Assembly (NCBI GenBank): GCA_023621995.1
Contig: JAMOAB010000050.1
Span: 1 to 36,419, forward strand
Direction: 5' to 3'
Source: Bacillota bacterium
GTDB lineage: Bacteria; Bacillota; Clostridia; Caldicoprobacterales; Xylanivirgaceae
Length of the DNA stretch: 36,419 nucleotides
The position numbers and the translations under genes are program-made. Shown piece after piece: positions 5,850-35,440 of this stretch (position 1 is its first letter; every line of letters begins with the position of its first letter). Under the pieces are notes generated by a model. That model did not search any database. It saw only the letters and a list, made by a program, of their open reading frames with translations, and had not been told where the DNA came from.

Positions 5850-7235
5850 CTACCCCATTTTCCTCACACTATCTACTGTCCAGTCCACTAGCTCTTCAAT
5901 TGTCATCTCCTTCATGGTACGAACATAGGTATAGAGTTTATCTCCAATGGGCTCCATCCATCGCTTAGGGATAGATTCCATCCCCCCTATTATACCCAGG
6001 GCTGTCATTATCTGAGCTGCATTACAATCCACATCTTGGCCTTCCATGGCTATTATATGCATTGTATCATCAAAATCGCCGTTGCCAAACCATAGGGCTA
6101 CAACTTCAGCTGCTGCATTGGGATATGCATGTACCCAATTATATCGTTCAAATCGCCTCTCGCATATATGCCAAGCTTCTTCCCAATCGGACGATACCCT
6201 GCAGCTCTCGTAGGCAAACTTTATGACACTATAGTATTCACTTTCTTTAGGTAGCATATCCATGGACATCTCTAAAATCTTCTTTATATCGGTCTCTACA
6301 AAGGCTAGAGATACTAGTAGGGCATTGAATACCTCTCCAATTATGCCATTATTCCCATGGGAGATGGTGCCATCTATGAATGCAAGCCTAGCCGCCTCCC
6401 TTGGGTCTCCTGGTGCTACCATGCCGCATATGGCTCCCCGCATCTGGGCTCCAATCCATTCATAGAATGGATTTTGATGTATGCCACTTTGGGGTGGGAA
6501 TATCCCTGACCTTAAATTTTTAAGGGCTATGTCCTCTGCCGACCATCCAAAGGGTATGAGCGCCACCCACTGTAGGGCTATATCCTCTGCTGTAACATCG
6601 TAGCCCTTTTCTTCAAATGCCTTTAAAAATGCGAGCTCATAAGTAATATCGTCATTTAGTGTGTTGGGTTTTCGTACATAGTCCCTTATCTCACCAAATG
6701 CCTTGCGTAAATTGGCGGTGATGTATCCCTCTAATGCTGTTCCCATGGCACCACCTATTATCTGGGCAACCCAACCTGCCCTTATTTTCTGTTTAAAATC
6801 CTCATCGTGTATATTATATTGCCTCTTAGGTTGAAACTCCACATCCTGTTCATATTCCTCCCAAGTATTATATATCTTGTATTTCCAATAGGAGGAAGAT
6901 TCATCATTTTTGGCGTTATTTACAGCATACATAATCTTGGCAGTTACACTGTGTAGTGTAGGCATATCATCCTCTTCAAGTGCCCTAAGCCCCTTTTCTA
7001 TAAGCTCTTCTGCCCCTTCCACTCTCATGCCTCTATTCTCCACCGCCTGTACAGCTGCTATCATGAGCCTTTCAGGTGCTCCAGAACCAGGCACCCGACT
7101 ATCCCATAAAAGCCTTGTATACGAATCTGCTTGCTCTTCTAGTTCACTAATGATATCCCATGATTGCTCTTCTTCCTCAAGCACCCTAGGCATTGCACTG
7201 TCCATAAGTTGCCTTTCCATCTCCCATGCCCTCAT
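5850..7235 (-). CDS. ADP-ribosylglycohydrolase (DraG) family protein in the nucleoside operon
   Basis: A 461-residue protein. Its C-terminal two thirds (about 145-450) match the all-helical ADP-ribosylglycohydrolase/DraG fold. The first metal motif is present as NDDITYE (194-200) and the second as GQDVDCNAAQ (399-408), with DxDC in place of the more usual DTDT. The first 140 residues form an extra helical region absent from small DraG proteins. Family members cleave N- or O-glycosidic bonds to ADP-ribose and related ribosides in a Mg-dependent manner. The ATG has a strong GAGGAGGT site 8 nt upstream. Its place between a nucleoside deaminase and the repressor/ribokinase pair suggests that it acts on a small riboside or ADP-ribose-like metabolite rather than on modified proteins. 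That is inference from context. A paralogue lies at 24190-25551. Confidence 0.8.
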   Translation of the reverse strand: MRAWEMERQLMDSAMPRVLEEEEQSWDIISELEEQADSYTRLLWDSRVPGSGAPERLMIAAVQAVENRGMRVEGAEELIEKGLRALEEDDMPTLHSVTAKIMYAVNNAKNDESSSYWKYKIYNTWEEYEQDVEFQPKRQYNIHDEDFKQKIRAGWVAQIIGGAMGTALEGYITANLRKAFGEIRDYVRKPNTLNDDITYELAFLKAFEEKGYDVTAEDIALQWVALIPFGWSAEDIALKNLRSGIFPPQSGIHQNPFYEWIGAQMRGAICGMVAPGDPREAARLAFIDGTISHGNNGIIGEVFNALLVSLAFVETDIKKILEMSMDMLPKESEYYSVIKFAYESCRVSSDWEEAWHICERRFERYNWVHAYPNAAAEVVALWFGNGDFDDTMHIIAMEGQDVDCNAAQIMTALGIIGGMESIPKRWMEPIGDKLYTYVRTMKEMTIEELVDWTVDSVRKMG

Positions 7236-24189: not shown

Positions 24190-25551
24190 TTATTCAATAT
24201 CCATAGTTTGCTTAGCAAAGGGCACTGTCCTCTTTGCCAACTCTGAAATGGCTACCTTATGAAAACCCTGTACACCTGATACTATGCTATCATTTAATGG
24301 TTCTATCCACTTTTTAGGTAGATTTTCTGCTCCCATGAGCATTCCTACAATAGAACCTACCGTAGCCGCATTACAATCTGTATCAAAGGCTGCCAGTGTG
24401 GCTATACCTATGGATTTTTCCAAATCGCCGCCTCCATATAACAAAGATAGAGTAACAATCATGGCATTTGTAATTGTATGGCACCAATGGTGTCCAATTG
24501 TCTCATCATATTGACTATGCACCCTGTCTACAGCTTCCTCCCAGCCTATACCTTCATCTATCCAAGACAATACTTCCTTTATTTTTTCACTTAATCTACT
24601 GTTTTGAGGTATCTCAGATAGACCTATATCTATGATCTCTTCCATATCATCTGTAACTGTAGCCCCAGATAACATGGCAGCTACCCACATTGCACCATAT
24701 ATACCGTTCTTGGTATGGGATATTCGTGCATCCCTCCATGCCATTTCAGCAGCCAGTTCAGGATAGCCAGGAGCTATATATCCATAGAAGTCAGCCCTTA
24801 TCTGAGCTCCAATCCACTCTCTATAGGGATTTCTAAAATATGCCGATTGGGGAACATCTATAAGATTCACTATGTTTTGATATGCCACCCTTTCAGCTGT
24901 ACAAGTGTATGCAATAGGTAGGCTAGAGATCCAAGTGTGGGCAACGTCGTTTGATGTAAAGTCAAGACCATATCTCTCAAGTATGGACAATGCTAAAATT
25001 GTATAATTGGTATCGTCATCTTCCACCATGTGTTCTACATTGTTTATCCAATTTATATTATTTGAACCGTATACCACACCTTCGTCCTTGACATTGTACT
25101 TTTTCCTAATGTCATCAGATACATCAGATGACATATAATACATAAGTGGATAGTTGTTAGTATCCTTAGTAAATCTTTGGAGCCTCTTCCTATACCAACC
25201 TTCAACAGGCTGACCTAGAAGGCAACCACTACACCTTCCAAGCCATGCACCTAATATCCTGTCATATAGCATATCATCGGATAATCTAGTCTCTATCCTC
25301 CTAGGACCAGAAGGTCTTTCAGCCCTTATGTCTTCTAATTCAGAAGGCTCTATATACGGAAAGCTGTCCTCCACTTTGAGGGATGAGATCTTATCTAAAA
25401 TTTTTAATGCCATCTCCTCCTTTGCTTGACCACTTAAGCTATCAAGCTTTCTTATCTCTCCCTCGTAGATAGTAACATCCTTCCCCTCATCCCAGCTTTG
25501 AAGAAGCTCTATAGGTACCCTCTCTGAATAGGTTAAATACGTAATATCCAC
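24190..25551 (-). CDS. ADP-ribosylglycohydrolase (DraG) family protein, second copy
   Basis: A 453-residue protein paralogous to the one in the nucleoside operon. A helical N-terminal extension of about 90 residues precedes the DraG-type domain. Metal-binding motifs are EDDDTNYT (177-184) and FDTDCNAATVGS (389-400), again with DxDC for DTDT. Shared segments with the other copy include EWIGAQ followed by an APGxPxxAA stretch and ISHxxNGIxG. It is thus an ADP-ribosyl- or riboside-hydrolase of unknown substrate. The start is a GTG with GGAAGGA upstream. The only co-oriented neighbour is the AraC-type regulator downstream, which may control it. Confidence 0.82.
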   Translation of the reverse strand: MDITYLTYSERVPIELLQSWDEGKDVTIYEGEIRKLDSLSGQAKEEMALKILDKISSLKVEDSFPYIEPSELEDIRAERPSGPRRIETRLSDDMLYDRILGAWLGRCSGCLLGQPVEGWYRKRLQRFTKDTNNYPLMYYMSSDVSDDIRKKYNVKDEGVVYGSNNINWINNVEHMVEDDDTNYTILALSILERYGLDFTSNDVAHTWISSLPIAYTCTAERVAYQNIVNLIDVPQSAYFRNPYREWIGAQIRADFYGYIAPGYPELAAEMAWRDARISHTKNGIYGAMWVAAMLSGATVTDDMEEIIDIGLSEIPQNSRLSEKIKEVLSWIDEGIGWEEAVDRVHSQYDETIGHHWCHTITNAMIVTLSLLYGGGDLEKSIGIATLAAFDTDCNAATVGSIVGMLMGAENLPKKWIEPLNDSIVSGVQGFHKVAISELAKRTVPFAKQTMDIE

Positions 25552-25890: not shown

Positions 25891-26547
25891 TTAATATTGG
25901 ATTTTAGAATAGTTTTGTTTTATAACTTTTGCCGGTACTCCAACAGCTACCACGTTATCTGGCACATTGTCTATGACTACAGCGCCGGCGCCAACTATGA
26001 CATTGCTACCAATCTCTATCTCTTGAATCACACTACTACCTATTCCTATAAACGAATTATTGCCTATCTTTACTCCTCCAGCTAGAGCTGCGCTAGGAGA
26101 AATTTGAACATTGTCACCTATTATACAATCATGTTCCACAACCGAATTTGTATTTATAATACAGTTAGAACCTAGATTTGCCCCTGCATTTATAACTGCT
26201 CCAGGCATAACGCAAGTACCCTCACCAATGGTAGCATAGGGCGATACCGATGCGCTATTGTGGATTAGAACAGGTAGATTATAACCTATATCCTTCAGCT
26301 TGGTATATATGTTATTTCTAAAATGAGAATTTCCCAGTGCGCCAATGCATATAAAGGCATTTTTTACTTCACTTTCGTATAATTCATATAAGACTTTATC
26401 ATCTCCAAGTATGGGTATTCCAAGCACATTATCTAGCTTAGGATTTGGATCAGTTATACCCACAATTTCATAATTAGTACTACTTTTGATTATATCTATT
26501 ATTACCTTTGACTGGACACCTCCAGCAATTAGAACTATCTTTTTCAT
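25891..26547 (-). CDS. NeuD/PglD-type sugar O- or N-acyltransferase
   Basis: About 218 residues. An N-terminal Rossmann-like domain (KKIVLIAGGVQSKVIIDII) is followed from about residue 85 by left-handed beta-helix hexapeptide repeats (IGEGTCVMPGAVINAGANLG onward). H in VVEHDCIIGD is the likely catalytic base, and the C-terminal AVGVPAKVIK is typical. Family members transfer acetyl groups from acetyl-CoA to amino or hydroxyl groups of sugar nucleotides or sialic acids. I prefer the second or third ATG because GGGTGAT lies just upstream. The gene stands alone, without polysaccharide or glycosylation genes around it, so it looks like a stray member of a surface-sugar cluster. Confidence 0.83.
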   Translation of the reverse strand: MKKIVLIAGGVQSKVIIDIIKSSTNYEIVGITDPNPKLDNVLGIPILGDDKVLYELYESEVKNAFICIGALGNSHFRNNIYTKLKDIGYNLPVLIHNSASVSPYATIGEGTCVMPGAVINAGANLGSNCIINTNSVVEHDCIIGDNVQISPSAALAGGVKIGNNSFIGIGSSVIQEIEIGSNVIVGAGAVVIDNVPDNVVAVGVPAKVIKQNYSKIQY

Positions 26548-26625
26548 CATATCACCCATTTTGTAGTTTTATAAAACATGATTTTCTCAAAAAATGTTAC
26601 ATTTAAATATACAAATAAACTTAAT

Positions 26626-26738: not shown

Positions 26739-29700
26739 CTAGAATCCCTGCCTATCGTCCATGATATAGTCTAAATATTCCATTGCCAGTCCGCGTTTCA
26801 ATATGTCATGGTATAGTTGATTGCTATAGTTTCGCAAACATCCATAACAGCTTGTCTCCTCACCACATCCACATATTCCAGATACCTTCCTTCGTGCTGC
26901 CATTATTACATCCTCTATGTTCTGGGATATCTTTTTTACATGACCTGCCCCACCTGGTACTTCATCAAACAAAATCAACCTTGGAGTAAGGCCTATTCCC
27001 GCATTATCATAGCTTACACTTCCGTTTATCTCACTGCGATCTATACCCAGTTTCATAGAAGCACCCTCTAAAAGTGCATACAACAAGGAATACCATAGGC
27101 TATTGTCACTCCCTGGCAAGGGTGGTAACCTCAATTCTAATACATCTGTAATAAAGTCATATCCTAAATGCACAGTATGTAAGTATGTGTTACTACATGT
27201 TCGTCCAATCCTATCATTGTGCTTAGTTATCTTTTTGTTTTTATATTCTACTAGAGGTACTATATAACCACAGACATTACACAGACTAAAACCTGATCTA
27301 TTTAATCCCTGGTTTATCAGTACTAGTTTACCTCGCGAAGAATATTTGTAATATATCTTATGGGCTCCAATATATATGTCACCTTCTACTGCAGAATTAT
27401 GTTCATCATCGTCATAGTCATCAAATATGATTTGAGTAGAATATTGTCTACCCTTCCGCCTTTCCCCAGGCGTTCTTGGTGCATCCATGTTGGTAGAGAA
27501 ACCAAACTCCGGCTTTACGTATCTATGGAGGGTCAAATCTTCTCCACAACAACTTCTTGGTAAGTCATTTTCTATACCATGTACCAGAGCAGACTCGACC
27601 ATATATATTTTATTACACTTAGGGCAGAGAACATACTCTTTTGTTGGCCAGCCTCTATTTACCGCTTTTTTAAGTGCATAGGGCTTCCATACTCTCCCAG
27701 CAGCTATTATTTCATTTCCAGGTGCAAATTCAGATATTGCGATCTTTAAATCACGCTCAAATTTTATATCACTCTTAGCCTCCCTAGAATGATGTAATAC
27801 ATCTAATCTGACTACATCTACAGGAAATCCGTATTTAGGTATTACATTGCTAGATGCTAAGAATGATATTATATCTTGATTAAGATATGTATTCTTTATA
27901 TGGAGCACGCTATCCATACCACTTTTTTGCTGAACACGAAGTTGGGTCATGAGTTCATCAAGTTCTTTTAATGTAGATATTAGGGTCATTTGTGCCTTAG
28001 GCAGCACTCCATCCTCACCTATAAATTCATCTAGCCAACCCCAACTATCTATCTCTAGGACAGAATACATCTCTATAGGTACAATCTTCTTTATAGATAT
28101 AAGTAGATCTTGTGGTCTTCTATTTAATTCTTTTCTGAGAATAGATAGTGCATCTGGATCTTTAAATTTATTGTATCTTATAAAATTGTCAACATTGCCA
28201 TAGTATGTTTCATTTTTTCTAAAAAACCACGACAATACAAGGGAATATATGTGTCGTTTTATTATCTTTTCGTTGAATTTCTCAATATACGGTGGTTTTA
28301 TCTTACCTGCAATCATCTGTTCTGGATGTTGGAAATAGGTCAAGTCATGGGAGCGCCTTTTAGCATAAGTCAGCGCAAAAGCAGTAGATTCAGTCTTTCT
28401 GCCAGCACGACCTGCCCTCTGTATGTAATTTGATGTCTCAGGAGGAATATTCCGCATAAATATTGCCTCTAGTTGCCCCACGTCTACACCCATTTCAAAA
28501 GTGGTAGAACAGCTTAATACATTCACATCTCCTTTTTCAAACTCCACTTGAAGGTTTGTTGCCCGTTTACTGGTGAGCTGGGCAGTATGTTCTTCCGCCC
28601 TCATAGGTATGGGTTTTATATTACTATATATGTCCTTATAATAGGTGAACCGAGTCTTCTCGCCTGTATATGGTCTTAAAGTCCCTTGGCATCTATATGT
28701 AGGACATACTCCCTTTATATTATATATTGAAAATGATCCACACACATCACATCTGTAGAGTTTTTTAGATCCATCTATCTTAAATACATTCCATCTATTA
28801 TAATCCATCTGTAGGAGAGTCCCTTGCCTACTGATATTATTGGGGACTATATATGATTTTTGTATAAAAAAATCCAATAACCTCCTATTTAACATATTCT
28901 TTAATATTTTCCGGCCCATATTACCAGAATCATCTTTGGGTACACCCTTTTTCTCTAGTAGCTTTATTATAAAGTCTAACCTCTTATTATTTGAATTTTG
29001 CTTAGGCATCCAACCTAGTACTACACTATTTCTAAAGGGCTCATCTGATTCCATCTTAAAATATACATATCTATTTCTAGGTTCAAATATCGGCTCGAGG
29101 GGAGAGATCTCCTTTGGAAATGTAACTGCTCCTGCAGTTCTTAGGCTATCAAAAAGAATACAGTATAGATTCCACATATCGTATTTATCTATACCCAAGG
29201 GCCTTTGTAAACCTCTTATATTTCCCCACGTGTTGGGAGGCATGAGCCCAAACCCTATCATGCCCAGGCCTTCCAGTCCGATATTTCTCTCCATATTTAA
29301 AAATTCCTTCATCAGGTAACCATATGCCAAATTAACTTTTTGTGGATCATCTAACCTAATATCAAATAGCTTATGCTCGTCTCCATAGCGTACAAGCATT
29401 TCAGCCACACTGTTTATATTTATATGATCATACTCTAGAGATTCTCCTAAAACTTCCAAAATAGCATGTCGCCACATAGTTTGATTATATTTAAGATTTA
29501 AATATGTGGCAAAAAAGGCTGCCTCCTGCCGATTATCAGAAAACACAAGGAGCTTTCGTCCACCTTCTTCTGATCCGGGACTTACACTAAAGTCACCGTC
29601 AATGTCAAAATCGCCATTAATGTCAAAATCAGCATCGATATCAAAATCATCAAACAATTCATATTCTACCTGTATGCTATCCTCCTCTTCATTTGGAGGA

Positions 29701-31670
29701 ATATTTTGATATAGTGTTCGTGCAAGCACTTCTGTTGTAGGAGCATCGGCTGTTAAAAATCTTTTTACCAGTTGATTCGAATGTGCACCACATACATAGC
29801 AAGTATTTAAATTTACACTTCTAGTATTTACCTTAAAAAGCCTTATATATTTTGAATTGTGGGCATCACAACATTTTATATCTCTTACTAAGTTAGCTTT
29901 AGCAATATATCCACATGCAGTGCACAATATATATTCTTCTAACTTTTCCCCAATAAAACTTCCTAAACTTCTACTATTTTTGATATCCAAATTTATATCA
30001 TCTTCATCTATCTCAGTTGTAGGATCTTGGGCATTTAAAATAAAATATTTCAATCTATTGGCATATATCCCTTCTATGGATACCTCTGTCCTAGGCTGTA
30101 CAAGCTTATTTTCACTATCTATTGTACCCACTAAATATTCTTGTCCACATCTTTGACAGTTAGCAAGCTCAAATACAGGAAATTCTTTCCCATCTTTTGT
30201 CTTACGCTTTTCATGTCTATCTAAATATAATTTCTTATCTGGCCAAAGGGATACATAGGCACCCTCTAAAGCTTTCACAAAGAGGTGATAACGGGCAGGA
30301 AGAAGCTGTATATCTTCCTGCCTTTCCTTGGATTGTGAAGCTATATCTACAAGCCTTACTACGAAATGTAAATCCACATATCCGTCACGTTCCAAATCTA
30401 AAGATTTATTTATAGCCTCTACCAAATCACTTAGAAGCATAGGACCTTCACGTAACTTTTCTTGTATCAAGGCTATATAGATATCATCATATAATAAATA
30501 ATAGAGCAATTCTGAAACATCGCTATCTGAATCTACTTTGCTAGCATCACAACAATTTCCTAGTAATTCTATAAGTTTACTTTGTTTCTCTTTATCTGAC
30601 CAATGGGAATACATTATTGTAAACAACGTTTCATAGAACTCTGCATTCTTTTTTTTGTATGAAACCCCATTATACGTAAAATCTATCTTATCTGAGTCAA
30701 TTATATCTGCTTCAGTAAAAGATTCTTTAAATAAATTGCTTGCAAATTCAGCCACTTCTCTATAATCTTCTTTACCTCTACCTAATGTTGCACTTGTAGC
30801 TATACAAGTTAGTCTTCCTTGCTCCCCTTGTGCCACCCTTTCTTTTAACCTTTGTAGTAACATAGATATCTCAGTGCCCTTTGCTCCTTTATAGGAGTGG
30901 GCTTCATCTAAAACAATGAACTTCCACTGATCACTATGTTCTCCATCAAAGAATACATTGTCGCGGGGCCTCAATAGTAAATACTCAAGCATGGCATAGT
31001 TTGTAAGTAGAATATGAGGTGGATTCTCACGCATCTCATCCCTAGATAGAAGTTCATTTTTAAGCCTCTTGCTACCTGGATTCATTTCCAAGAATCGTTC
31101 TAATCCTTTGTCTTCTTTATATTCTGTCTCTCCCGTATATCTGCCAAATGTTATATATGGGTAATCCTTTAAGATACTCCTAAGGCGGGCTAGCTGATCA
31201 TTGGCAAGGGCGTTCATAGGATATATGAGTATTGCTCGCACACCGCTTGTCAACTGGCCCTGTTCTTTCTGTTTCATTAGATAATCTAATATGGGTATCA
31301 AAAAGCATTCAGTCTTACCACTACCTGTACCTGTTGCGACTACAATATTTCTTCCTTCCACTACTATATTTTCAATTGAGCGTTGTTGATGTAGGTAAAG
31401 TGGCCTATATAGTATCTTGTCATCTAAGACTTTGCAATATTCTTTAGATAGTACTCCCCTATTTATTAAATCAGAAATACTTTCGCCCTTAACAAACGGA
31501 GGCGTTATCTCAAGAAAAGGCCCTTTTACAAACTTTCCTGACTCATTTAAAAGCTCTTCAGCCTGCCTGGAGAGTTCCCTATCTCTCAAAAAGAATAGCG
31601 AATTTAAATATTCTATATACCTTTCCCTAATATCTCTTGTGGTTTCTATGGGATTTAACGATATCTTCAT
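26739..31670 (-). CDS. Large DEAH-box helicase with DUF1998-type C-terminus (candidate defence helicase)
   Basis: A 1643-residue superfamily-2 helicase. RecA domain 1: Walker A ATGTGSGKT (112-120), YPMNALANDQ (150-159), DEAH (255-258) and SAT (293-295). RecA domain 2: LLVFSDNRQEAAFF (707-720) and FEMGVDVG...QRAGRAGR (1059-1091). Cys clusters lie at about 505-508, 583-586, 599-601, 624-627, 974-977 and 989-994. Two more follow (CPKC, CNVC) before a DUF1998-type end with FDEVPGGAGH (1568-1577) and CGCG/CYGC (1600-1611). Between the RecA domains, residues 677-694 are a DFDI(D/N)xD repeat. The gene overlaps the upstream 1246-residue gene by 44 nt; the start has GGGGGAGAG. The layout matches DruE/DISARM-like defence helicases and far exceeds the roughly 750-residue MrfA/YprA repair helicases. 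It probably unwinds or translocates on DNA; a defence role is inference. Confidence 0.85.
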   Translation of the reverse strand: MKISLNPIETTRDIRERYIEYLNSLFFLRDRELSRQAEELLNESGKFVKGPFLEITPPFVKGESISDLINRGVLSKEYCKVLDDKILYRPLYLHQQRSIENIVVEGRNIVVATGTGSGKTECFLIPILDYLMKQKEQGQLTSGVRAILIYPMNALANDQLARLRSILKDYPYITFGRYTGETEYKEDKGLERFLEMNPGSKRLKNELLSRDEMRENPPHILLTNYAMLEYLLLRPRDNVFFDGEHSDQWKFIVLDEAHSYKGAKGTEISMLLQRLKERVAQGEQGRLTCIATSATLGRGKEDYREVAEFASNLFKESFTEADIIDSDKIDFTYNGVSYKKKNAEFYETLFTIMYSHWSDKEKQSKLIELLGNCCDASKVDSDSDVSELLYYLLYDDIYIALIQEKLREGPMLLSDLVEAINKSLDLERDGYVDLHFVVRLVDIASQSKERQEDIQLLPARYHLFVKALEGAYVSLWPDKKLYLDRHEKRKTKDGKEFPVFELANCQRCGQEYLVGTIDSENKLVQPRTEVSIEGIYANRLKYFILNAQDPTTEIDEDDINLDIKNSRSLGSFIGEKLEEYILCTACGYIAKANLVRDIKCCDAHNSKYIRLFKVNTRSVNLNTCYVCGAHSNQLVKRFLTADAPTTEVLARTLYQNIPPNEEEDSIQVEYELFDDFDIDADFDINGDFDIDGDFSVSPGSEEGGRKLLVFSDNRQEAAFFATYLNLKYNQTMWRHAILEVLGESLEYDHININSVAEMLVRYGDEHKLFDIRLDDPQKVNLAYGYLMKEFLNMERNIGLEGLGMIGFGLMPPNTWGNIRGLQRPLGIDKYDMWNLYCILFDSLRTAGAVTFPKEISPLEPIFEPRNRYVYFKMESDEPFRNSVVLGWMPKQNSNNKRLDFIIKLLEKKGVPKDDSGNMGRKILKNMLNRRLLDFFIQKSYIVPNNISRQGTLLQMDYNRWNVFKIDGSKKLYRCDVCGSFSIYNIKGVCPTYRCQGTLRPYTGEKTRFTYYKDIYSNIKPIPMRAEEHTAQLTSKRATNLQVEFEKGDVNVLSCSTTFEMGVDVGQLEAIFMRNIPPETSNYIQRAGRAGRKTESTAFALTYAKRRSHDLTYFQHPEQMIAGKIKPPYIEKFNEKIIKRHIYSLVLSWFFRKNETYYGNVDNFIRYNKFKDPDALSILRKELNRRPQDLLISIKKIVPIEMYSVLEIDSWGWLDEFIGEDGVLPKAQMTLISTLKELDELMTQLRVQQKSGMDSVLHIKNTYLNQDIISFLASSNVIPKYGFPVDVVRLDVLHHSREAKSDIKFERDLKIAISEFAPGNEIIAAGRVWKPYALKKAVNRGWPTKEYVLCPKCNKIYMVESALVHGIENDLPRSCCGEDLTLHRYVKPEFGFSTNMDAPRTPGERRKGRQYSTQIIFDDYDDDEHNSAVEGDIYIGAHKIYYKYSSRGKLVLINQGLNRSGFSLCNVCGYIVPLVEYKNKKITKHNDRIGRTCSNTYLHTVHLGYDFITDVLELRLPPLPGSDNSLWYSLLYALLEGASMKLGIDRSEINGSVSYDNAGIGLTPRLILFDEVPGGAGHVKKISQNIEDVIMAARRKVSGICGCGEETSCYGCLRNYSNQLYHDILKRGLAMEYLDYIMDDRQGF
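29593..29664 (-). repeat. 18-bp tandem repeat inside the helicase gene
   Basis: Three and a half imperfect 18-bp units (starting 29593, 29611, 29629 and 29647) share the core GTCAAAATC or a one-base variant. They encode the acidic DFDIxxD repeat between the two RecA domains of the helicase. The copy number could change by slippage without breaking the frame. Confidence 0.7.
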
Positions 31671-34600
31671 CTTTAATCTCTCCCCCTATCGAATGATATA
31701 ATTCAAATATAATATAATCCCTAATGAAAAGCTCCTTCATATTTTTATATGATATTATCGTTAACAAGTAGAAACATATATCTGTGGATATGCCTTCCCA
31801 CGCTGATAATGATGAAAAATATGCTGTCAAACCGCAGTACTCAGCTGCCCTATCTTCCACATCCCGCCGGTAACTTAACATTTTGATAATTTCTACCCTA
31901 TCATCTAGTTCTTTGAGCACACTTCTATATATATTGGATTTTCCGTATAAAGCTTTAAAATTCTTTGTAATTGACTGCCACTTGCTATCTTTTATACTTT
32001 TCTTTAAATCTAAAAAAGTCTTTAAATATGTCTTGCCAAATATTTTAAGCTCCGTATCTTTCTCTGTTTTTTCGTATTCTGCATATATATCATCATCTGA
32101 AAGATACATGAATTTATTGCTCTGTTGAAGAGTATGAAAGTACTTATCAATATGAAATTTATCGCCTAATAAATCAGTATCTAACCTTATACCTACTCTA
32201 TTACAACTACACCCTTCCCATATGGAAGCCTTTAGACACCCTCTAAGAGGTTTTTTATTATTTCCTTCTAATATACAGTCCCCATTGGACAATTGCTTGC
32301 CTATGAGTTTACACGTATTCATCTGTCCAATCCATTCACATATCCTATTTGCAGCACCCATCTTATCTGCTGGATTTGTCCTAATATCTACTAAGAAACC
32401 CAATATTGGCATGGTATCCCATAGATATTGAGTTTCATTTATGGAAAATGTCACTTTAGTATCTACAGGGGCGTTTATGATGTCCCATTTTAGCACCAAA
32501 TGTTCAAAATCCTCTCTAGAAAAGTTCCCATATATTAGAAGTTTTAATATGGTATATTTGCATATTATTCTGGAGTATTTGTAAAACATGCTAGTAAATA
32601 AATTTTTGACTTTCCTCCTAATCTTCCCATCTCGGGGTGGATTTTTTCGGAAGAATAAGTATGAAATACTAATCTTATATATATCAGATTTATCAATATC
32701 ATCTGGCAGATGTTTAGGCAAGTGAATTGTTTTATTTTTCAAAGCCTCATTATCTGCACATAAAAGCATGTATTGTAATAGGGCATCTAGTGGCTCCAAA
32801 TTAGCATACTCCAAATGATCTACAGTAAAACTCTTTAAATCGGATATCTTAGGGATATCCACAGAAGTTATATCATCAAAAAAGTCATCTCCAGATATTC
32901 GTCTAAGTTTTATACCATACCTACCTGGGCTAGGTAAGGCTAACTCATCTAGGTCAATTCCTTTCTCCATTACCCCATCCTCTATATATATAGTCTCAGG
33001 GGGATACCATGGCATATAGTAGTTGTATATTACAAGCTCTCTATCTGCCCTGCTTCCCCCTTCATCCCATGTAACAAGTAATCTGTCTGCCTCGTTTTTA
33101 ACTTCCATATTCCTATAGACTATTTCATCTTGTATCTTTGCTATTACAACTTGGGTCATGGTATCCATATTGTCAGGACATATATCCATTATTAGATAAG
33201 AGCTGTCACATTCATTATCCTGAATTGTGGTCAAATATCTATTCATAGATACAGACACGATATCTCCCTTGCCTATTTTTAAGACTTCATCTTGATATAT
33301 CATCCTATTGCCATCTACTAGTTTTAAATGTATTTTTAAAGATTCCCAACTCCCAATGCCCATACCCACTATAAGAAATACATCATTTTCTGTCTCTATA
33401 TCAGCTAAAGACATTATATGGCATTTGTTGCTCCAAGTTATACTTCCTCTTCCGTCAAGGCCCATCCAACCCCAATATATAGGCCTTATGTATGTCCTAA
33501 AATTTATATCTGGCACTTTATAACGTGAATTGATTACTATCTTTCCGTATAGTATATATGAATCATCTAAAATTTGAAATTTAGAATATTCCCTACCGTT
33601 TATAATTTCCTTATATTCAAATGTTGCATTGTCAAAGTCTAAATCTACATATGAAGGATGATGACAATAGAAATGTTTCAATTTGTAACCTACTGTTCCA
33701 TAAGGCCAAAATGCGTCTGGCTCTATGTAAATTTCAATCTCAGGTATATATCTAAGATAAAACCGTCCCCTCTGTCCATGCCGTCCTACCAGTTTTATAG
33801 TGTAATCACCATAGTTTCCTTTTTTTATAAGTCTAGGGTTATCTAAAGGTATAAGTATCATATCGTCATATTCTTTGATTGTACCCACATCAGAAAGGGA
33901 TATAGTTGAAATGTCATTCTTTTGTTTATTTTCAATGCTAAATGTCCAAAGTTCACACTGACTTTCAAGAGACATGTTTTTCTCCCTATATATGCTTACA
34001 GCAGGTAATTCTACATAGCTATTATTAGATAAGTTCTCATCTGGATCTTCATTAAATATTAATCTGCCACCCACAAGACTTGGTTTTTTATTTACCCTTA
34101 CGTCTATATCAATCCTTTCATCAATTCTATTTTCACTGTACAGAGATAGTATATTAGCCCCTTCTAAGTCAACCCTATAAAATTTAAAACCATGCCATCT
34201 AGTTAGTGGAGGAATCTCAATGATGGTTATTCCAGAATTATATATACAAAGGTCGTCAGTGCATACTAGAGTGATACTCTGTTTTGGTAGGTAATCAGTC
34301 TTAATTAGTTCATTATTCTTATTAAAGCATATATAATCACTGTCATCTTTTATTCCCTTAAACTCCCAATTATTAATTAGCTCCCCCTCTAAATATAGAT
34401 TGATTGTATACACTGGGCTAGGTCCCACTGGCATAATCTTTTCCTCTGAGACAATAGCACCATCTTTTCTATAGAGATCAGCTATAGTGACATGGGAGTT
34501 TTGTGCCCCATTTCCATATAAGAGTTGCCATTCCACCTTATCTTCATATGTATCATTTATCCGTTGCGCCGGCAAAACAATATATATGCCCATACCGGTT

Positions 34601-35367
34601 ATATCTATTTTAAGCTTAGGATTTGCAAATAAGACCCTTCCTCTACGGGCATTTACTTTAGTCGCCCTAGGGAGTTCCCTCCATATAAAATAGCGTTCTA
34701 TAAATCGGGGCTGTATGCTGGGAAACATAGTAAAACTCTCTTCTTTGGAGATCTCTTTATTTTCAACTGCCAACATAAACTCCCTTAAATTTAGTAAAAA
34801 CTCCTCTGCGTCGTCCCCCAAATATTTTATATATCGCCTAATAGGCATATTTGCCCTATACGCTGCTATATAGTTAAATTCATCTAATATATAGCCATTG
34901 AAAAAAGATATATTGTATAGCATGTCTTCTAATACATCAAACAGTATATCCATTGAATTTATCGGTATACCTGCATGACATAGTATAGGAGTAACATATC
35001 TATACCCTTCCCTAGCCTCCTGCTCAAAGGAAGGCAAGTCATACTCCTTTAACACAGAATTAAAGCTACTAATTATGTTATATTTGTAGTTATCTATCTC
35101 ACCTATATATTTTTCTACATGTGGCCAATAGTTGTCATCAAAATGGTATACTGCACAGAACACTAAAAACACTGTCATAGCAACTCTATACTCAGTATAT
35201 AACATTATAATATGGCCATGCTTTGCAAAAGCATTTATCTTATCACTTAAAAGATTGAAATCTTCAGCTGTAAGATTTAAATCAGATATTATATCTACAT
35301 CTTGGAGTTCTTGCTGTAATATCTCATCCATATGCTTTAGAGTGCCATGGCCACCGAATAAGCCCAT
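31627..35367 (-). CDS. Large uncharacterised protein, partner of the DUF1998 helicase
   Basis: About 1246 residues; no signal peptide or transmembrane segment and no enzyme motif that I recognise. I prefer the ATG at 35365-35367 (MGLFGGHGTL), preceded by GGGGTGAG, over a TTG at 35409. The N-terminal 240 residues look helical and contain YWPHVEKYIG and GYRYVTPILCHAGIP. The middle (about 240-850) is rich in predicted beta strands with many aromatic residues (NPKLKIDITGMGIYIVLPAQ, RGRFYLRYIPEIEIYIEPD), suggesting several beta-sandwich domains. The C-terminal part is helical with scattered Cys. It overlaps the helicase start by 44 nt, so the two are translationally coupled. By size and partner it occupies the place of DruH in Druantia type III systems, but homology is not established here. 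Confidence 0.75.
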   Translation of the reverse strand: MGLFGGHGTLKHMDEILQQELQDVDIISDLNLTAEDFNLLSDKINAFAKHGHIIMLYTEYRVAMTVFLVFCAVYHFDDNYWPHVEKYIGEIDNYKYNIISSFNSVLKEYDLPSFEQEAREGYRYVTPILCHAGIPINSMDILFDVLEDMLYNISFFNGYILDEFNYIAAYRANMPIRRYIKYLGDDAEEFLLNLREFMLAVENKEISKEESFTMFPSIQPRFIERYFIWRELPRATKVNARRGRVLFANPKLKIDITGMGIYIVLPAQRINDTYEDKVEWQLLYGNGAQNSHVTIADLYRKDGAIVSEEKIMPVGPSPVYTINLYLEGELINNWEFKGIKDDSDYICFNKNNELIKTDYLPKQSITLVCTDDLCIYNSGITIIEIPPLTRWHGFKFYRVDLEGANILSLYSENRIDERIDIDVRVNKKPSLVGGRLIFNEDPDENLSNNSYVELPAVSIYREKNMSLESQCELWTFSIENKQKNDISTISLSDVGTIKEYDDMILIPLDNPRLIKKGNYGDYTIKLVGRHGQRGRFYLRYIPEIEIYIEPDAFWPYGTVGYKLKHFYCHHPSYVDLDFDNATFEYKEIINGREYSKFQILDDSYILYGKIVINSRYKVPDINFRTYIRPIYWGWMGLDGRGSITWSNKCHIMSLADIETENDVFLIVGMGIGSWESLKIHLKLVDGNRMIYQDEVLKIGKGDIVSVSMNRYLTTIQDNECDSSYLIMDICPDNMDTMTQVVIAKIQDEIVYRNMEVKNEADRLLVTWDEGGSRADRELVIYNYYMPWYPPETIYIEDGVMEKGIDLDELALPSPGRYGIKLRRISGDDFFDDITSVDIPKISDLKSFTVDHLEYANLEPLDALLQYMLLCADNEALKNKTIHLPKHLPDDIDKSDIYKISISYLFFRKNPPRDGKIRRKVKNLFTSMFYKYSRIICKYTILKLLIYGNFSREDFEHLVLKWDIINAPVDTKVTFSINETQYLWDTMPILGFLVDIRTNPADKMGAANRICEWIGQMNTCKLIGKQLSNGDCILEGNNKKPLRGCLKASIWEGCSCNRVGIRLDTDLLGDKFHIDKYFHTLQQSNKFMYLSDDDIYAEYEKTEKDTELKIFGKTYLKTFLDLKKSIKDSKWQSITKNFKALYGKSNIYRSVLKELDDRVEIIKMLSYRRDVEDRAAEYCGLTAYFSSLSAWEGISTDICFYLLTIISYKNMKELFIRDYIIFELYHSIGGEIKDEDIVKSHRNHKRY

Positions 35368-35440
35368 ATATCTCACCCCAAAAATACTTGTGTATATAAT
35401 ATTCGACAAAAAATCCGTTTTCCCTCCATATATTCTCTAC

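Follow-up and report, generated by a model that had tools for sequence, protein, structure and literature searches.

A two-gene operon in a metabolic neighbourhood

The stretch of DNA analysed here, referred to as the window, is a contig of 36,419 nucleotides from a bacterium of the phylum Bacillota. An earlier note made from its sequence alone drew attention to two very long overlapping genes and regarded them as a candidate anti-phage system. Upon inspection both ORFs proved uninterrupted. They reside on the minus strand, and their features are compiled in Table 1. A TTG at position 35409 is an alternative start for the upstream gene and would extend its product to 1260 aa. The G+C content of the operon is 35%, compared with 38% for the remainder of the window.

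Table 1 Features of the two-gene operon, with positions in the window
Feature	Position	Strand	Basis
DruE-like (YprA family) SF2 helicase, 1643 aa, without C-terminal nuclease domain	26739..31670	-	PADLOC, Pfam, PDB, clade placement
MrfA zinc-binding domain MZB/DUF1998, residues 1531-1612	26835..27080	-	Pfam
Helicase motif VI QRAGRAGR, residues 1084-1091	28398..28421	-	
Walker B DEAH, residues 255-258	30897..30908	-	
Walker A GTGSGKT, residues 114-120	31311..31331	-	
Gene overlap, 44 nt	31627..31670	-	
DruH-like partner, proposed infection sensor, 1246 aa	31627..35367	-	Upstream-partner family membership and profile-profile match to DruH
C-terminal helical region, partner residues about 826-1246	31630..32892	-	AF2, low confidence, modelled to 1200
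Ig-like beta-sandwich array, partner residues about 250-825	32893..34620	-	AF2, Foldseek
N-terminal helical domain, partner residues 1-245	34633..35367	-	AF2, alignment
Shine-Dalgarno-like GGGGTGA preceding the partner ATG at 35367	35373..35379	-	Sequence reading

The neighbouring ORFs that were scanned encode proteins of sugar metabolism, transporters and regulators. No further defence genes were detected among them, and the window contains no tRNA. Two genes of the ADP-ribosylglycohydrolase family (5850-7235 and 24190-25551) lie amid the sugar-catabolism genes. The earlier note had described the surroundings as debris. The supposed stray acyltransferase (25891-26559, 180 nt downstream of the helicase gene) does not fit this description: it is intact, belongs to the NeuD/PglD family of sugar acetyltransferases, exceeds its NCBIfam cut-off and probably stands outside the system. 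For the PAP2 gene, similarity to the model starts only at position 20 of 130, and the ORF continues past the contig end. A relic of an MNT gene was not found among window ORFs of at least 60 aa.

The downstream gene encodes a DruE-like helicase without a nuclease domain

Pfam recognises DEAD (3e-24), Helicase_C (2e-10) and MZB (MrfA Zn-binding, 2e-13) domains in the 1643-aa protein. The SF2 motifs Walker A, DEAH, SAT and VI are all intact, seven CxxC motifs are present, and RecA1 and RecA2 are separated by approximately 700 aa, in agreement with the split RecA arrangement noticed before. In the PADLOC library the highest scores were obtained exclusively with DruE families (DruE1 648 bits, DruE3 562 bits), while DpdJ (86 bits), BrxH and DISARM DrmA (53 bits) scored far lower. 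A sequence search of the PDB returned 9tu7 (2108 aa, 7e-82) and 9wae as best matches; the YprA structure 6znp reached 77 bits and was thus much weaker than 9tu7. The proposal of a DruE-like architecture is thereby borne out.

No PLD domain was matched by Pfam in the helicase, and its C-terminus lies only 31 residues beyond the MZB domain. There is thus no room for the PLD pair of Escherichia coli DruE, nor for the Vsr-like domains that characterise the helicases of Druantia I/II and ARMADA (PMC12458937). The earlier observation that no nuclease is visible holds.

A conserved pair with a fast-evolving upstream protein

The distribution of the pair was surveyed in 398 genomes of the same phylum. 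With a threshold of E up to 1e-60, the helicase was present in 37 of these (about 9%), and a search with the single partner sequence gave matches in 19. A large gene resides directly upstream of the helicase gene in nearly all of 40 retrieved loci. A GTDB scan using the helicase alignment yielded 80 named loci, with hosts that include Fervidibacillus, Fictibacillus, Mycobacterium, Streptomyces, Chloroflexota, Planctomycetota and an archaeal MAG. Best-segment identity was 49% for the helicases of Fervidibacillus and Fictibacillus, and homologues occurred in 8 of 148 Mycobacterium genomes searched.

An iterated HMM search seeded by the window partner united 88 upstream proteins in one family, among them Mycobacterium proteins of 1125-1134 aa. 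Upstream sequence of 1.5 kb or more was available for 102 helicase loci, and in 93 of these a family member was found directly upstream. The median gap between the two genes in these loci is -4 nt, and 55 pairs overlap. Absence of conserved pairing, which would have spoken against a joint system, is therefore not what is seen across genomes. For 69 pairs, mean identity is 16% for the partner and 38% for the helicase, and the divergences of the two proteins are correlated (Spearman 0.77). Judged by these values, evolution has been much more rapid in the partner than in the helicase. DruH and DruE behave likewise, the partner diverging faster than the helicase (PMC13192584).

The family varies considerably in its additions. 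Many partners have a long insert of coiled-coil-like character immediately behind the N-terminal domain (genes in loci L062-L066, L068, L097 and L100 are examples), 32 of the 88 members have a length of at least 1290 aa, and a zinc-finger-like Cys/His motif is located near the C-terminus in 28 of the 88. The window copy has neither the insert nor the motif. Two partners (L079:6544-9621 and L087:3007-6468) end in helix-hairpin-helix modules resembling the RNA polymerase alpha-CTD, a possible DNA-binding add-on. In three loci with members of the helicase clade (L123, L151, L187), the large or medium-sized upstream gene does not detectably belong to the partner family.

Relatives of the pair are found next to genes for type I restriction, BrxC, DrmD, Hma, pAgo and PglX, an observation made without a control set that lends support to a role in defence. 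In principle, the helicase could also be a DNA-repair enzyme of the YprA/MrfA type with the partner as an accessory repair factor, as might be suspected from the MZB domain that it has in common with MrfA and from the metabolic neighbourhood in the window. We consider this very improbable. The helicase matches DruE1 with 648 bits but YprA 6znp with only 77 bits and groups with DruE, so that clear orthology to a housekeeping repair helicase, the other result that would have argued against a defence system, was not encountered. The patchy distribution in the phylum, the fast evolution of the partner and the defence genes adjoining relatives speak against a repair function as well.

Predicted structure of the partner

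Direct searches of Pfam, NCBIfam, PADLOC and the PDB with the 1246-aa partner, by HMM and BLAST, returned nothing significant, and tblastn against plasmids gave no match. AlphaFold predicts a helical head, an Ig-like array and a helical tail of low confidence, with an overall pLDDT of 73. The N-terminal domain alone is modelled with a pLDDT of 91.8 and a pTM of 0.89 and contains the family motif xYVTPILxHxGIP at about residues 123-135. Conserved residues of the partner (W81, H131, P135, F348, G815) look structural, and no catalytic pattern suggesting an enzyme was discernible among them. Foldseek with the full model matched solely generic tandem Ig-like arrays, and with the N-terminal domain it gave no match with E below 0.001. 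A DruH structure was absent from the Foldseek results (PDB copy to April 2026).

Profile comparison relates the partner to DruH

DruH sequences of the E. coli type ('STY4851/ECs_5259 family') were drawn from annotated plasmids. While eleven PADLOC DruH3 models match E. coli DruH, the PADLOC DruH models produced no match at the cut-offs used, neither with the window partner nor with its family. A different picture emerged when a profile of 94 partner family sequences was compared by hhalign with nine DruH sequences. Locally, 425 co-linear columns were aligned at a probability of 95% (P=3.9e-8); globally, co-linearity extended over 933 columns (P=1.7e-9). Controls with DruH reversed or shuffled gave probabilities of 0.1 or less, and the DruH profile scored 83 compared with 28 for the top of 65 decoys. 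With the first partner profile, which was small (21 members), the probability had been 22%. In the profile alignment, partner and DruH share about 9% identity.

The strongest match falls in the beta-rich region, and this, together with the failure of all PADLOC DruH models and the generic Ig arrays retrieved by Foldseek, could mean that the partner is unrelated to DruH, merely shares common Ig-like beta-sandwiches with it and forms a separate, unnamed two-gene defence type with a DruE-like helicase. We regard this as unlikely. The N-terminal helical domain on its own aligns with DruH at a probability of 76% (P=2.3e-5), whereas the reversed control yields 0.2% (P 0.24). Alignments of this domain with several individual DruH sequences share one register, and the motif YVTPILxHAGIP of the partner is paired with YLxSLxxEGGLP of DruH. 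In addition, the global alignment is co-linear throughout, all decoys remain far below the DruH score, and the partner gene takes the same place and order with respect to the DruE gene as the DruH gene does. The predicted layout of the partner also resembles that of E. coli DruH, in which helical regions at both ends enclose Ig-like domains that span 257-748 (PMC13192584). On this profile-based evidence, the partner is a very distant DruH homologue, and what is new here is a large and diverse family of DruH-related partners that is invisible to the PADLOC DruH models.

The helicase falls into a branch separate from Druantia III-A

In both trees calculated, the window helicase groups with those of Fervidibacillus and Fictibacillus. 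The clade is set apart, with an SH-aLRT of 98, from III-A, type I-like, type II-like and ARMADA helicases and from a cyanobacterial group, and most of its members have a length that leaves no space for a nuclease. References for type I were chosen by a PADLOC DruE1 score of 1891 bits and those for type II by DruE2/4 scores above 1400; distant matches from a helicase tblastn search against plasmids were taken as III-A and ARMADA references. The deep root of the tree is unsure, because the ARMADA sequences are very long-branched.

Two further groups of relatives deserve mention. DruE-like helicases of about 2080 aa from cyanobacteria (L105, L106, L197, L198) form a clade of their own. In their loci an additional gene of about 310 aa separates the helicase gene from the upstream gene, and in L198 the latter gives a match to the partner family (3.6e-23). 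Two viral contigs, L209 and L214, contribute DruE-like helicases (2098 and 2010 aa, respectively) that branch at or close to the base of the III-B-like clade. Their partners, with lengths of 1256 and 1097 aa, show only weak matches to the partner family (1e-5 and 8e-7). The two pairs are possible intermediates.

A branch of III-like YprA helicases that stands apart from III-A and is mostly nuclease-less has been described as Druantia III-B, with GIH50614.1 as representative and without mention of DruH in the main text (Bell et al. 2025 preprint, PMC12458937). Architecture and tree position of the window helicase fit this branch. PADLOC scores and tree agree that it belongs to the DruE family, the hallmark of Druantia. 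The upstream DruH that defines Druantia III escapes family HMMs and becomes apparent by profile-profile comparison. The two C-terminal PLD domains of III-A DruE are missing, and a position in type I is contradicted by the DruE1 score, which is about a third of that of the type I-like reference. DruA-D, methyltransferases, PLD nucleases and deazaguanine genes were not found among the scanned window ORFs.

Could the pair then be a canonical Druantia III-A that has recently lost its nuclease domains? A precedent exists in the DruE of an Azotobacter plasmid (L228:1037-6154, 1705 aa), which is encoded with a true DruH, lies inside III-A, is also nuclease-less and appears to have lost the PLD domains independently. 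That protein, however, remains within III-A (SH-aLRT 100), while the window helicase resides in another clade, where the length of most members corresponds to that of a helicase lacking a nuclease, and we judge such a recent loss extremely improbable for the window pair.

Druantia I/II, ARMADA, DISARM and Dpd also employ helicases of the YprA family, most of which bear a DUF1998/MZB module. Those of Druantia I/II and ARMADA sit on other branches of the tree, and DISARM and Dpd are set apart by HMM scores. DISARM was rejected since MZB/DUF1998 is fused to the helicase in the window pair, DrmA scores low, and neither a methyltransferase nor a PLD nuclease was found; BREX and ARMADA were dismissed on domain content and tree. 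The statement that the locus is neither DISARM nor BREX thus stands. Between the two options left by the earlier note, the DruE match of the helicase, the conserved pairing and the remote homology of the partner to DruH favour a Clostridial variant of Druantia III. The option of an unnamed type is weaker, because the literature already contains III-B (PMC12458937) as well as experiments on a nuclease-less Druantia III (PMC13316683).

Comparison with characterised Druantia systems and a proposed mechanism

The tested system is type III Druantia of Mycobacterium smegmatis (MSMEG_1253/1254), which consists of a DruH of 1132 aa and a DruE of 1667 aa encoded with a 17-bp overlap (Li & He 2026, PMC13316683). 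Its DruE has DEAD, Helicase_C and DUF1998 domains and no nuclease. Both genes and the interaction of their products are required for defence, DruH alone is toxic and is neutralised by DruE, and circularisation and replication of phage DNA are blocked (PMC13316683). Overlapping genes for a DruH or DruH-like protein and a nuclease-less DruE-family helicase are a plan common to this system and the window pair. The M. smegmatis system differs in that it stems from Actinomycetota and from another sub-branch of the helicase tree, and it was likened to the pair via DruE and not via the DruH sequence. Four sites mutated in M. smegmatis DruE, K119, A292, A1016 and C1516, are occupied by K, A, A and C in the helicase of Mycobacterium angelicum (L148), a member of the clade, where they represent the Walker A lysine, the motif III alanine, an alanine that follows motif VI and a cysteine of MZB; the residues at these positions of E. 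coli DruE are S, A, M and E. D225 is a mismatch, the residue being tyrosine in L148, and the mutated residues of M. smegmatis DruH left no clear fingerprint among the homologues tested.

E. coli Druantia III-A (PDB 9tu7, 9tud) has the gene order, the DruE core and the zinc modules of the window pair. It differs in the DruE PLD pair and in its DruH, which is about 9% identical to the partner and was not matched by ordinary HMM search. E. coli DruE has a length of about 2100 aa and bears two PLD nuclease domains. It loads onto DNA that is 3'-tailed or forked and exerts its action on replication intermediates at a late stage; DruH is the likely sensor (PMC13192584).

Taken together, we assign a probability of about 75% to the explanation that the pair is a Druantia III-like anti-phage system of the III-B branch, composed of a putative DruH-like sensor and a nuclease-less helicase. 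Sensing, substrate and anti-phage outcome are inferred by analogy with the systems described above. The DruH-like partner, predicted to consist of a helical head, an Ig-like array and a helical tail, is probably the infection sensor and would most likely bind a structural or replication protein of the phage. The helicase would load where replication intermediates of the phage expose 3' single-stranded tails and would translocate in the 3'-5' direction, as proposed by analogy with E. coli DruE. Together, the two proteins would block replication or circularisation of phage DNA, and cleavage, if any, would be left to the partner itself or to host nucleases. We know of no phage assay for Bacillota members of the branch.

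A more far-reaching version of the Druantia III-B-like explanation can be put forward tentatively. According to it, the whole branch would defend without a dedicated nuclease, and DruH-like sensors that differ in their inserts (coiled coils, zinc fingers, RNA polymerase alpha-CTD-like modules) would activate a helicase that stops replication by unwinding or blocking alone. Bacillota and several other phyla would then harbour a large, so far unrecognised sensor family with triggers of its own.

Implications

Since the PADLOC DruH models miss the partner entirely and the best match of the helicase is DruE1, systems of this kind are likely under-called or mis-typed. Nuclease-less Druantia III is already known as a kind; the novelty lies in the divergent DruH family that current models do not recognise. 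If the partner is a DruH homologue, more than 80 diverse sensors would be available for mapping surfaces that contact phage triggers, and the family may also be useful for understanding how nuclease-less Druantia works.
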